Part shown: piece after piece, positions 34,621-38,613 of the stretch
Numbering within the stretch: the stretch's first letter is position 1
How the letters are laid out: the number at the start of each line of letters is the position of its first letter
Origin: Sphingobacterium cavernae
Lineage (GTDB): Bacteria > Bacteroidota > Bacteroidia > Sphingobacteriales > Sphingobacteriaceae
Direction: 5' to 3'
Assembly: GCF_008520265.1 (NCBI RefSeq)
Contig: NZ_VIQM01000054.1
Span: forward strand, 1-64,000
Length of the DNA: 64,000 nucleotides
The notes under the pieces: model-generated
Databases searched by the model: none
What the model saw: only the letters and a program-made list of their open reading frames with translations
What the model was told of the DNA's origin: nothing
Program-made: the position numbers and the translations under genes

Positions 34621-34872
34621 GATTTTATTGTTAAAATATTACATCGCAAAATTAGAGTATTTTAAAGGATAAACAAAATTTAGAATATTCTAGGGTATCT
34701 AGCGGAAGTTGATATTTTTTAATTAAAATTTTAGTTAAATGGAAATCAAGATATTTTAAACATTTCAACGATTTATATGTCTTATTATTAGTTTGATTAT
34801 TATACTATTTAAGCAATTGATTTTTTTGAAAAAAAACTACAATTCCATTGCATAAACAAAAAAATAATTTAA

Positions 34873-34880
34873 TACTTTTG
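34873..34880 (+). promoter_or_regulatory. -7 promoter box (TACTTTTG) of the arginine operon leader
   Basis: An exact TAnnTTTG with TTG at 34848-34850, 22 nt upstream, as a possible -33 element. Transcription should start near 34886, so the leader before the first acetyltransferase gene is about 280 nt. Confidence 0.65.
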
Positions 34881-34916
34881 CGCAGTCAGATTTTAAGAAA
34901 GAAAACATTTTATACA

Positions 34917-35051
34917 ATGTATAGTTCAAAAGCCTTTTTCACTGCTAATAAACAAGTTTTTAATAAACTTGTAGCGATGGCTTTTGCATTCTATAATAGG
35001 ATGAATTGTCCAATTTTGCGATTTCGACGACCTATTCTGCCTCGAGCTTGA
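34917..35051 (+). CDS. Putative arginine operon leader peptide
   Basis: From ATG 34917, the first after the promoter, 44 codons end at TGA 35049-35051. The tail reads MNCPILRFRRPILPRA: four CGA arginine codons within ten codons just before a strong hairpin. An internal ATG at 35001 would give a 16-residue version. Position before an arginine synthesis operon and Arg codons at the stop are the signs of a ribosome-stalling attenuator. The peptide itself resembles no family I know. Confidence 0.6.
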   Translation: MYSSKAFFTANKQVFNKLVAMAFAFYNRMNCPILRFRRPILPRA

Positions 35052-35142
35052 TTTCGGAGGCAGAGCACATTAGCTTCAATCGAATTCGTGTAGCTCTACG
35101 AATTTTACAATCCTTAGTTATTCTTTATTTGCACGAGAGTGC
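35037..35142 (+). promoter_or_regulatory. Putative attenuator hairpins of the arginine operon
   Basis: CTGCCTC (35037-35043) pairs with GAGGCAG (35057-35063) across the leader-peptide stop. AATTCGT (35083-35089) pairs with ACGAATT (35098-35104), followed by TTTT. AGAGC (35062-35066) can instead pair with GCTCT (35093-35097), which competes with both. GCAC-GAGA-GTGC forms a small hairpin at 35131-35142. The alternatives fit an attenuator switched by ribosome position on the Arg codons. Confidence 0.5.
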
Positions 35143-35168
35143 GTTAATTATTAGGTCGACATCTTAAG

Positions 35169-35876
35169 ATGACAATTTCAGATTTTTTAATTATTCCTGC
35201 GACAGCTGATCATGTGATTTATGCTGATGCAATTTGTAACGAAATGTTTGAGTCTGCAAAAGCTCGTGGAACGGGTATTGCTAGACGCAAGCCAGAGTAT
35301 TTAGCGAAAAAAATGGAAGAGGGGAAGGCGGTCATTGCGTTGCATAAGGATGGACGTTGGGCAGGTTTTTGCTACATCGAAACGTGGTCGCATGGCGATT
35401 ATGTGGCGAATTCAGGTCTTATTGTGAGTCCTGAGTTTCGTAAAGTAGGATTGGCAAAAGCAATTAAAAAGCGTGTATTCGAGCTATCGCACGAAAAATA
35501 TCCAAAAGCGAAAATTTTCGGTTTGACAACGGGTCTTGCTGTGATGAAAATCAATTCCGAATTAGGGTACGAACCAGTTACTTATTCGGAGCTTACGCAA
35601 GATGAGGAATTCTGGGCGGGTTGTAAAAGCTGTATCAATTACGATATTTTGGTGAGCAAAGAACGCAAAAACTGTATGTGTACAGCTATGCTTTGGGATC
35701 CAGAAGAGAAGGCTAAAGAGTTGGAAGAAAGATTGAAGCGTAGAGCAGAAGCCAAAATACGTTTGGAAAGAATTTCGAAAAAACAATCTTTATTAAAACG
35801 TATCGAAGCAAAGTTGTGGCGCTCGACAAAGAAATTTGTGGCAACTGTGTTTCCTACACGTGCAGAAACAGCATAG
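35169..35876 (+). CDS. GNAT acetyltransferase, candidate N-acylglutamate synthase
   Basis: 235 residues. A GNAT fold occupies about 5-140 (GFCYIETW; the acyl-CoA loop region FRKVGLAKAIKKR at 90-102; MKINSELGYEPV). Four cysteines follow (Cys152, Cys155, Cys169, Cys171) in a CxxC...CxC pattern that could bind Zn or Fe-S, and then a long Arg/Lys/Glu helix (about 180-215). It is the first structural gene after the arginine leader and lies 68 nt before argG. The pathway needs an N-acylglutamate synthase and no argA or argJ is visible, so this is a good candidate; no activity is proven. Confidence 0.8.
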   Translation: MTISDFLIIPATADHVIYADAICNEMFESAKARGTGIARRKPEYLAKKMEEGKAVIALHKDGRWAGFCYIETWSHGDYVANSGLIVSPEFRKVGLAKAIKKRVFELSHEKYPKAKIFGLTTGLAVMKINSELGYEPVTYSELTQDEEFWAGCKSCINYDILVSKERKNCMCTAMLWDPEEKAKELEERLKRRAEAKIRLERISKKQSLLKRIEAKLWRSTKKFVATVFPTRAETA

Positions 35877-35944: not shown

Positions 35945-37132
35945 ATGAAAAAAGTAGTTTTAGCATTTAGTGGTGGTTTAGATACATCGTTTTGTTGTAT
36001 TTATTTGACTAAAGATTTGGGCTTGGAAGTACACTCTGTAGTCGTAAATACAGGTGGATTTTCTGCTGAGGAATTAAAAAATATCGAAGCTCGTGCATAT
36101 GAGTTGGGAGTGAAATCACATACCACAATCGACGAGACTGAAAACTACTACCGCGAAACTATAAAATATTTGATTTTTGGTAATGTGTTGAAGAATGCAA
36201 CTTACCCATTATCAGTTTCCGCAGAACGTGTGTGTCAAGCAACAGCTATCGCGAATTATGCAAAGAAAATCGGCGCAGAATCCGTAGCGCATGGCTCTAC
36301 AGGTGCGGGTAATGACCAAGTTCGCTTTGATATGATCTTCAATACCTTGATTCCAGGTGTTGAAATCATTACGCCAATTCGTGATTTGAAATTATCTCGT
36401 GAGGCTGAAATTGAATATTTAGGTAAGCATGGTTTCCCATATAGCGCTGAAAAAGCTAAATACTCAATTAACAAAGGGCTTTGGGGTACTTCAGTTGGTG
36501 GTGCAGAGACTTTGACTTCAAACCAATACTTACCAGAATCAGCTTGGCCAACAGCTGCTACTTCTACAGAACCACAAACGGTTACAATAGATTTTGAAAA
36601 AGGTGAGCCTGTAGCATTGAATGGTGAGAAAATCGGTGCAGTAAAAGTTATCCAACAATTACAAGATTTAGCACAGCCTTACGGCATTGGTCGTGATATT
36701 CACGTAGGTGACACCATTATCGGTATCAAAGGTCGTGTAGGTTTTGAAGCTGCTGGTCCGATTATTTTGGTAAAAGCACACCATACGTTAGAGAAACATA
36801 CGTTAACAAAATGGCAATTGGCGTGGAAAGATCAAATCGCTGCATTCTATGGAAACTGGATGCACGAAGGTCAGATGCACGATCCTGTAATGCGTGACAT
36901 CGAAGCATTTTTATCTTCAGCACAAGAGACTGTTACAGGTCGCGTGATTGTGGAATTGCACCCATACCGTTTCGTAATCGTAGGTATTGAGTCAGCGCAC
37001 GATTTGATGAATAATAAATTTGGTAGCTACGGCGAGATGAACGAAGGTTACACTGGAGATGATGTAAAAGGATTCTCAAAAATCTTCGGAAACCAAACTA
37101 TCATTTGGCATAAAGTAAATAACAAAGGCTAA
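35945..37132 (+). CDS. argG: Argininosuccinate synthase
   Basis: 395 residues. It starts MKKVVLAFSGGLDTSFCCIY with the PP-loop SGGLDTS. It contains AHGSTGAGNDQVRFD and YSINKGLWGTSVGG, typical of the bacterial enzyme. It joins citrulline and aspartate with ATP, the penultimate step of arginine synthesis. Its stop overlaps the start of the next acetyltransferase gene by 1 nt (TAATG). Confidence 0.97.
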   Translation: MKKVVLAFSGGLDTSFCCIYLTKDLGLEVHSVVVNTGGFSAEELKNIEARAYELGVKSHTTIDETENYYRETIKYLIFGNVLKNATYPLSVSAERVCQATAIANYAKKIGAESVAHGSTGAGNDQVRFDMIFNTLIPGVEIITPIRDLKLSREAEIEYLGKHGFPYSAEKAKYSINKGLWGTSVGGAETLTSNQYLPESAWPTAATSTEPQTVTIDFEKGEPVALNGEKIGAVKVIQQLQDLAQPYGIGRDIHVGDTIIGIKGRVGFEAAGPIILVKAHHTLEKHTLTKWQLAWKDQIAAFYGNWMHEGQMHDPVMRDIEAFLSSAQETVTGRVIVELHPYRFVIVGIESAHDLMNNKFGSYGEMNEGYTGDDVKGFSKIFGNQTIIWHKVNNKG

Positions 37133-37578
37133 TGATTGTCCTTGGTACATTAGATAATTTACATGATTTAGTGGGCCTATTCGATCAATATAGAATTTTT
37201 TATAAGAAAGATTCTGATCTAGAAGGAGCTGCAAAATTTTTATCTGATCGTATCCTAAACAAAGAGTCTGTTATTTATATCTATTACGATAAAAATACTG
37301 CGGTAGGGTTTACGCAACTCTACCCTAAATATTCTTCAGTACGAATGGTGCGAAACTGGATTTTGAATGATCTATTCGTGCTGAAAGAATATAGAAAAAC
37401 TGGGATAGCCACTCAGTTGATCAATAAAGCTATTGAATTTGCAAAATCCAATGATGCAAATTTTGTGCAGTTAGAAACCCAAGTTGATAATCTTGTAGCA
37501 CAAGAGCTCTATCAACATTTAGGCTTTGAATTGCAGGGACCTGATGCAGAATTCCTGCTTTATAAAAAGTTTATATAA
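37132..37578 (+). CDS. GNAT-family N-acetyltransferase in the arginine operon
   Basis: 148 residues with a single GNAT domain: LNDLFVLKEYRKTGIATQLI holds the acetyl-CoA loop (YRKTGIA), and VQLETQVDNLVAQELYQHLGF follows. The substrate is unknown. It overlaps argG by one base and is followed 15 nt later by argC, so it is co-transcribed and probably translationally coupled. It may act on an arginine-pathway intermediate. Confidence 0.85.
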   Translation: MIVLGTLDNLHDLVGLFDQYRIFYKKDSDLEGAAKFLSDRILNKESVIYIYYDKNTAVGFTQLYPKYSSVRMVRNWILNDLFVLKEYRKTGIATQLINKAIEFAKSNDANFVQLETQVDNLVAQELYQHLGFELQGPDAEFLLYKKFI

Positions 37579-37593
37579 ATCTTAACTTTCAAT

Positions 37594-38613
37594 ATGAGCA
37601 AAATAAGAGTAGGAATAATCGGTTCGGCAGGATATACTGGTGGTGAATTATTACGTATTTTGATATTTCATCCCGAAGTAGAAATAGTGTTTGCAAACTC
37701 TGCTTCCAATGCTGGTAATAAATTATATGCTGTACACAACGATTTATTCGGTGATACAGAATTAGAATTTTCTTCGGATTTCCATTCGGATATTGATGTG
37801 TTGTTTTTGTGTGTGGGACATGGAGATGCCCGCAAGTTTTTGGATGCTAATCCTATTGATATTTCTGTGAAAATTATTGACTTGTCACAAGATTATAGAT
37901 TGCACGCAAACACTACTTATCAAGGTCAAAACTTTGTCTATGGTTTGCCAGAATTGAATCGTGAAGCGATTAAAAATGCACAATATATAGCAAATCCAGG
38001 CTGTTTTGCAACGAATATTCAATTGGCATTATTGCCTTTGGCTTCAAAAGGCCTTTTGCCTTCGCAAATTCATATCAATGCGACGACAGGTTCGACAGGT
38101 GCTGGTCAAAAACCAACAGCAACATCTCATTTCTCATGGCGTAATAACAACTTGTCTGCATACAAATCTTTTGAGCATCAACATTTGCAAGAAGTATCAG
38201 AGTCTTTGGATCAATTGCAAAATGGGTTTCTACCAGAATCGGAAAAATCATTATTAGAAAGAGCTGCGGAGAAAATCAACTTCGTGCCACAACGTGGAGA
38301 TTTCACGCGTGGTATTTTCTCAGCAATTTATGTAGATTCGGATTTGACAGAAGATGAAGCTTATGATTTGTATAATTCATACTATGCTTCGCATCCTTTT
38401 ACATCAGTTTCCAAAGCAAATATTGATTTGAAACAAGTTGTGAATACGAACAAATCTATCATCCATTTAGAAAAACATGGTAATAAGTTGTTGATTCTAA
38501 ATGCTACGGATAACTTATTAAAAGGAGCCTCCGGTCAAGCTGTTCAGAATATGAACTTAATGTTCGGCTTAGAAGAACGTACGGGACTTAATTTAAAATC
38601 CATAGGATTTTAA
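37594..38613 (+). CDS. argC: N-acetyl-gamma-glutamyl-phosphate reductase
   Basis: 339 residues. The NADP-binding start is VGIIGSAGYTGGELLR, the catalytic Cys137 lies in NPGCFATN, and a substrate-binding region GSTGAGQKPTATSHFSWR follows. It reduces N-acyl-glutamyl phosphate to the semialdehyde in arginine synthesis. argD, argF, argB and argH, which often follow in this phylum, are absent from the window, so the pathway genes are split. Confidence 0.95.
   Translation: MSKIRVGIIGSAGYTGGELLRILIFHPEVEIVFANSASNAGNKLYAVHNDLFGDTELEFSSDFHSDIDVLFLCVGHGDARKFLDANPIDISVKIIDLSQDYRLHANTTYQGQNFVYGLPELNREAIKNAQYIANPGCFATNIQLALLPLASKGLLPSQIHINATTGSTGAGQKPTATSHFSWRNNNLSAYKSFEHQHLQEVSESLDQLQNGFLPESEKSLLERAAEKINFVPQRGDFTRGIFSAIYVDSDLTEDEAYDLYNSYYASHPFTSVSKANIDLKQVVNTNKSIIHLEKHGNKLLILNATDNLLKGASGQAVQNMNLMFGLEERTGLNLKSIGF

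Follow-up and report, generated by a model that had tools for sequence, protein, structure and literature searches.

In the trpL, hisL and leuL attenuators, a short leader carries codons for the product of the pathway and its stop codon falls within the first hairpin or beside it, and erm-type translational attenuators respond to a macrolide. In the LEU element of actinobacterial leuA, a run of leucine codons and the leuA start site form a stem that encloses a pseudoknot, its authors favouring a protein and citing mutations against codon sensing (PMC1262725). In Salmonella, ribosome pausing in orf34 (speFL) without arginine keeps the downstream speF expressed, with involvement of Rho and RNase G (PMC6386406), and in rbfL of S. 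aureus Arg codons sense arginine shortage at the level of translation, the target being a biofilm regulator (PMC13009471). Among the Bacteroidota, the phylum of the locus described here, the Bacteroid-trp motif (RF01692) is a cis-regulatory leader of an amino-acid operon (PMC2864571). A study of F. psychrophilum suspected leader-peptide attenuation at amino-acid operons and names pheA and hisG elements, an arginine leader being absent from its main text (PMC9723704).

We analysed a stretch of 64,000 nucleotides from Sphingobacterium cavernae (contig NZ_VIQM01000054.1, positions 1 to 64,000; hereafter the window), in which a leader region precedes an arginine operon (Table 1). A preliminary description, prepared from the letters of the window, had proposed an exact promoter box followed by a 44-codon frame and the gene order GNAT, argG, GNAT, argC. 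The gene order was borne out by profile matches, and the box indeed fits TAnnTTTG, which precedes the frame in 63 of the 64 leaders compared within the genus versus a chance expectation of 4%. The TTG element recurs at the same 22-nt spacing in 48 of these leaders, and a ATTGCATAAAAG..TTTACTTTTG promoter block is kept in the genus alignment. An orthologue of the first GNAT gene was found in 92/94 same-genus and 178/201 family genomes, and argG comes next at all 80 named loci. In two genomes of the genus (G069 and G084) the GNAT gene is absent and the leader element was likewise not found. The second GNAT belongs to a different subfamily from the first, and overlaps the argG stop codon. The reading we favour, and hold to be probable, is that the leader would be a ribosome-mediated arginine attenuator, acting mainly on translation initiation through a base stem, P1.

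Table 1. Features of the leader region and the downstream operon (window coordinates).
Feature	Position	Strand	Remarks
TTG, upstream promoter element	34848-34850	+	22 nt 5' of TAnnTTTG box
TAnnTTTG promoter box, TACTTTTG	34873-34880	+	Bacteroidota type
Leader peptide frame	34917-35051	+	ATG 34917 to TGA 35051, 44 codons, MYSSKAFFTANKQVFNKLVAMAFAFYNRMNCPILRFRRPILPRA
Arg35 codon, CGA	35019-35021	+	Arg in 66/66
Arg37-Arg38 codons, CGA CGA	35025-35030	+	CGACGA in 66/66
P1 base stem, 5' strand, CGACCUA	35028-35034	+	Arg38, Pro39, first base of Ile40
P2 hairpin, 5' arm, CUGCCUC	35037-35043	+	99% of cells paired
Arg43 codon, CGA	35043-35045	+	Arg in 66/66
P2 loop, GAGCU	35044-35048	+	Proposed kissing partner of P3 loop
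P2 hairpin, 3' arm, GAGGCAG	35057-35063	+	Leader stop codon inside loop
P3 hairpin, 5' arm, AATTCGT	35083-35089	+	Many compensatory changes
P3 loop, AGCUC	35092-35096	+	Proposed partner of P2 loop
P3 hairpin, 3' arm, ACGAATT	35098-35104	+	Followed by TTTT
P4 hairpin, GCAC/GUGC	35131-35142	+	Pairs 35131-35134 with 35139-35142
P1 base stem, 3' strand, UAGGUCG	35152-35158	+	11-17 nt 5' of GNAT start codon
P5, small start-codon hairpin, CAUC/GAUG	35160-35171	+	Adjoins P1
GNAT-family acetyltransferase, operon gene 1	35169-35876	+	Weak Pfam Acetyltransf_1
argG, argininosuccinate synthase	35945-37132	+	TIGR00032 above cut-off
Second GNAT acetyltransferase	37132-37578	+	PF00583
argC, N-acetyl-gamma-glutamyl-phosphate reductase	37594-38613	+	TIGR01850 above cut-off

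The leader frame was recovered in all 66 same-genus leaders and is exactly 44 amino acids long in 65 of them, a length that holds despite the highly variable N-terminal part of some 29 residues. The peptide ends in LRFRRPILPRA* in the window, and PxLR[FL]RRPILPRA or a near variant terminates every one of the same-genus peptides. As described previously, four of the last ten codons are CGA (starting at 35019, 35025, 35028 and 35043); among the Arg codons in long ORFs of the window the CGA share is 12%. Arg35 is encoded by all six Arg codons across the 66 leaders (CGA, CGC, AGA, AGG, CGG and CGT), and such invariance of the residue over six codons implies that selection acts on translation of the frame. 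Further afield, the frame was found in 79 of the 80 named loci, covering Sphingobacterium, Parapedobacter, Daejeonella, Mucilaginibacter and relatives, with RRPxMPRx or RRRxxxPRx kept in other genera. Using dinucleotide shuffles, the Arg enrichment reached z = 27.6 among the family's other genera; in other families of the Bacteroidia the sequence is looser, with Arg as the most enriched residue of the upstream frames (z = 10.9). Profile searches of the leader peptide against Pfam and NCBIfam yielded no match. Judging from these alignments, the leader peptide is conserved across Sphingobacteriaceae as a peptide family. As is general for ribosome-mediated amino-acid attenuators, whose leaders abound in codons for the product, a short translated Arg-rich frame lies 5' of a biosynthetic operon, and the earlier suggestion of an Arg-codon leader ahead of arginine genes is upheld by the conserved Arg codons of relatives. 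It is very likely that this Arg-codon leader peptide acts as a regulator.

How the peptide would stall a ribosome can be read in more than one way. The C-terminus, PxLRxRRPxxPRx, might itself halt the ribosome, possibly in response to arginine or to a metabolite related to it, with no role for hungry Arg codons. Congruent with such nascent-chain arrest, Pro32, Leu34 and the RRP/PR pattern are kept as amino acids, the former two with synonymous changes among the 66 same-genus leaders, the length is fixed at 44 residues, and RRPxxPR persists in genera with a different downstream RNA. On the other hand, peptides of other families share mainly Arg richness, and the codons for ILPRA also make up the arm and loop of P2, which are conserved, so that the RNA accounts for part of the peptide conservation. 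We regard arrest by the nascent chain as unlikely. As a separate observation, Pro32 and Leu34 (35010-35018) are conserved outside any RNA helix, hinting at some contribution of the nascent chain.

The RNA itself provided the evidence for how the favoured codon-dependent attenuator could operate. None of 100 shuffles folds as well as the 300-nt leader (z = -3.6), and an alignment of 64 distinct leaders was exploited for the fold. The tested structure, comprising P1-P4 and a loop contact, pairs in 92.5% of cells, with double changes in 166 cells, and its covariation score of 0.289 compares with 0.163 +/- 0.006 for shuffled and 0.025-0.061 for slid versions. With no structure supplied, RNAalifold recovered the P1 core, P2, P3 and P4, with compensatory change at 14 of 21 pairs. 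Conserved Arg codons and stems covarying in relatives, the check proposed in the preliminary description, were hence both found, although that description had missed the base stem P1 and the pairing between the loops of P2 and P3.

P1 joins the Arg-Arg-Pro codons to the region just before the GNAT start codon, a placement that points to control of translation initiation. Its core also emerged from single-sequence folds, and a UA pair is replaced by CG in 10 sequences and by UG in 6 more (for example, CGACCUA/UAGGUCG becomes CGACCCA/UGGGUCG), the CG changes falling largely in one clade and thus representing few independent events. Most P1 pairs display no compensatory change. In one divergent leader of the genus (L162) the stem is absent, and beyond Sphingobacterium, Parapedobacter and the Olivibacter group it was not evident, being weak or absent in the other genera compared. 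The 7-bp hairpin previously placed at the end of the frame, with the stop codon in its loop (CTGCCTC/GAGGCAG), corresponds to P2, where a GC pair is changed to AU in 10 sequences (for example, CUGCC/GGCAG to CUACC/GGUAG), and P4 exhibits compensatory changes at all four pairs (such as GCAC/GUGC to AUAC/GUAU). Between P2 and P3 we propose a kissing-loop contact: the loops pair in 94% of cells, an A-U to G-C double change is present in 9 sequences, probably of one clade, and an equivalent pairing is readable in the leaders of Parapedobacter and the Olivibacter group. At the start codon, a P5 stem of at least 4 bp including the AUG was detected in 59/66 Sphingobacterium leaders and in all 9 and all 5 leaders of two further genera, the expectations from shuffled spacers being 16.7, 3.5 and 1.8, respectively. 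A covariance model built from the genus matched the element in genera that had not been used for it (Parapedobacter and the Olivibacter group, E 1e-4 to 1e-10), and within the genus located a single copy per genome, at the GNAT leader position. A search of the window against Rfam returned no family above cut-off, Bacteroid-trp included, and a match to RefA9 at chance level only.

The preliminary description had instead placed a transcription terminator and antiterminator here, as in classical attenuation, where the second hairpin (35083-35104) or P4 would terminate and a stalled ribosome would favour the antiterminator. Its elements are present in the window: AATTCGT/ACGAATT is followed by TTTT, AGAGC can pair with GCTCT (35062-35066/35093-35097), and UUAAUUAUU directly follows P4; U-tailed hairpins also precede the gene in some related genera. 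Neither the U-run nor the AGAGC/GCTCT pairing is conserved, however, the former being restricted to the nearest relatives of the window and a few others, and the latter, as a candidate antiterminator, to the nearest relatives. U-tailed hairpins of -6 kcal/mol or below were found in just 5 of 66 same-genus leaders (mean -2.1), which offers no conserved intrinsic terminator of the trpL type in the genus, and a scan of the window gave 1 terminator-like site versus 1.4 expected. The terminator was rejected for the genus, where classical transcription attenuation is a rather unlikely account. Daejeonella and related genera (L054, L055, L070-L077 and L175-L177) combine the same peptide with a different downstream RNA, in which AAAGACTA..TAGTCTTTTTT and UCCG..CGGA-UUUU hairpins, terminator-like but weak, lie beside the gene. 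The output of the leader may have changed between these genera and Sphingobacterium.

Returning to control of initiation by a stalled ribosome, a ribosome covers about 15 nt on each side of its P-site. By coordinates, the 5' strand of P1 lies wholly or partly under a ribosome positioned at each of the four Arg codons, so the codons are placed such that stalling would disrupt a conserved helix. We then calculated the energy needed to open -20 to +12 of the GNAT gene, with and without removal of the RNA covered by the ribosome. For free Sphingobacterium RNA this opening cost is 11.3 kcal/mol; placing a ribosome at Arg35, 37, 38 or 43 brings it to about 7, a decrease seen in 62 of 66 leaders. The corresponding change is from 13.0 to about 9 kcal/mol in Parapedobacter (lower in 9/9), and in the Olivibacter group the outcome is equivocal, the cost being lower in 2/5. 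The mean drop is 4.5, as opposed to -0.04 +/- 0.41 for leaders shuffled with an intact start site. Averaged over the start region, the unpaired probability is nearly the same in the two states and is uninformative, which is why the opening energy with its shuffled-leader control was used. Duplex energy between the leader tail and the start site was rejected as a test, considering that dinucleotide-shuffled CGA-rich tails keep the complementarity, leaving it without power. With P1 blocked, the start region is also able to form an extended P5 hairpin.

Since the opening cost falls with a ribosome on the Arg codons, the prediction is that the start site becomes exposed when charged tRNA-Arg runs short, and we infer the following sequence of events. 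Transcription would start near 34887 and the 44-codon leader would be read first. With plentiful arginine, ribosomes would pass the Arg codons and depart, allowing the RNA to close, with P1 formed, the stop codon in the P2 loop, the P2 and P3 loops kissing and P5 holding the AUG; the start site would then be hidden and the operon low. Conversely, with charged tRNA-Arg scarce, a ribosome would wait at one of the four Arg codons and cover the P1 5' strand, and from Arg38 onward the P2 arm as well, freeing the start site for production of GNAT-argG-GNAT-argC. Effects on mRNA decay or through Rho could follow.

Such effects might alternatively be the primary output, with the RNA shielded by translation of the leader, and Rho access or mRNA stability depending on whether ribosomes stall. 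The layout of Salmonella orf34, with two consecutive Arg codons and a strand of the leader facing the ribosome-binding site of speF, is indeed close to that of P1 (PMC6386406), yet a conserved P1 next to the start codon is explained directly by initiation control, and we find a Rho-dependent or decay-coupled mechanism quite improbable. The multi-helix fold, with its loop-loop contact and a base stem that reaches the start site, might suggest a metabolite-binding riboswitch that overlaps a reading frame by chance. This is highly improbable, given synonymous switches at Arg35 that mark the frame as selected for coding, a peptide that occurs beyond the lineages with the RNA fold, and no Rfam match.

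Control by a leader may also be related to the distribution of ArgR. The ArgR family was absent from all 41 same-genus genomes searched, with positive control genomes yielding matches. Clear argR genes were identified in other GNAT-bearing Bacteroidia (G327:C6, G367:C1, G489:C1, G539:C9 and, from another sample, G400:C57), in each case immediately 5' of the GNAT-argG operon, in the slot equivalent to 34870-35168 of the window, which in other families is occupied by the Arg-rich frame. A clear ArgR accompanied 0/36 loci with an Arg-rich frame versus 4/24 without (Fisher p = 0.02), an association that is suggestive only, as three of the four ArgR cases stem from one family. ArgR and the Arg-rich leader frame look mutually exclusive in GNAT-bearing Bacteroidia. 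Tentatively, and with somewhat less confidence than we would need to favour it, a class-wide Arg-codon leader may replace ArgR at the head of the operon in many Bacteroidia, having evolved in Sphingobacterium and two related groups into a self-contained switch of translation, with the Arg codons as one side of the stem that covers the start site and kissing loops as its lock, and with other outputs possible in other lineages.

The view that no Arg-codon leader has been described in Bacteroidota agrees with our search of the searchable literature, which found none; few subscription journals and preprints are covered there, and absence from it is not proof. Attenuation as such is not new in the phylum, considering the suspicion raised for F. 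psychrophilum. On comparative sequence evidence, the element is real and conserved, and very likely a form of leader-peptide attenuation that the searchable literature lacks; its peptides make up a family kept throughout Sphingobacteriaceae. Shine-Dalgarno pairing is weak in Bacteroidota, and we found no description in the searchable literature of ArgR-free control of arginine synthesis in the phylum; a switch that acts on the start site and consists of leader codons is therefore informative. The element would represent a second example, beside LEU, of regulatory codons doubling as the strand that closes the start of the next gene, and is conserved enough for direct study in species that can be cultured, Sphingobacterium multivorum among them.

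Compared with known systems, the element shares with trpL, hisL and leuL a leader peptide with product codons and a stop codon in the first hairpin, but lacks their conserved terminator, the predicted output being translation initiation. In this it resembles the erm-type attenuators, as a ribosome stalled in the leader is predicted to uncover the start site that follows, although the signal would be amino-acid shortage and not a macrolide. Bacteroid-trp and the flavobacterial leaders serve other pathways, and rbfL has the opposite sign, its stalled ribosome blocking the start site that would here be freed. With orf34-speF it has in common a short leader in which two Arg codons adjoin and an RNA hiding the downstream start site; there, however, the setting is a polyamine gene of gammaproteobacteria, with Rho and RNase G, and the DUF2618 peptide (HIRRT..HIMM) is dissimilar, no DUF2618-type peptide or downstream speF being present at our locus, where the argG operon follows. 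Similarly to the LEU element, the run of regulatory codons, for arginine instead, forms a base-stem strand at the start site of the first gene, with a putative pseudoknot inside the base stem and no terminator. LEU differs in concerning leucine, Actinobacteria and pairing of a Shine-Dalgarno box, and the peptide and operon are unrelated, with arginine codons and the argG operon here in place of leucine codons and leuA. By analogy, then, the nearest architecture is that of the LEU element, and the nearest functional parallel is orf34-speF.
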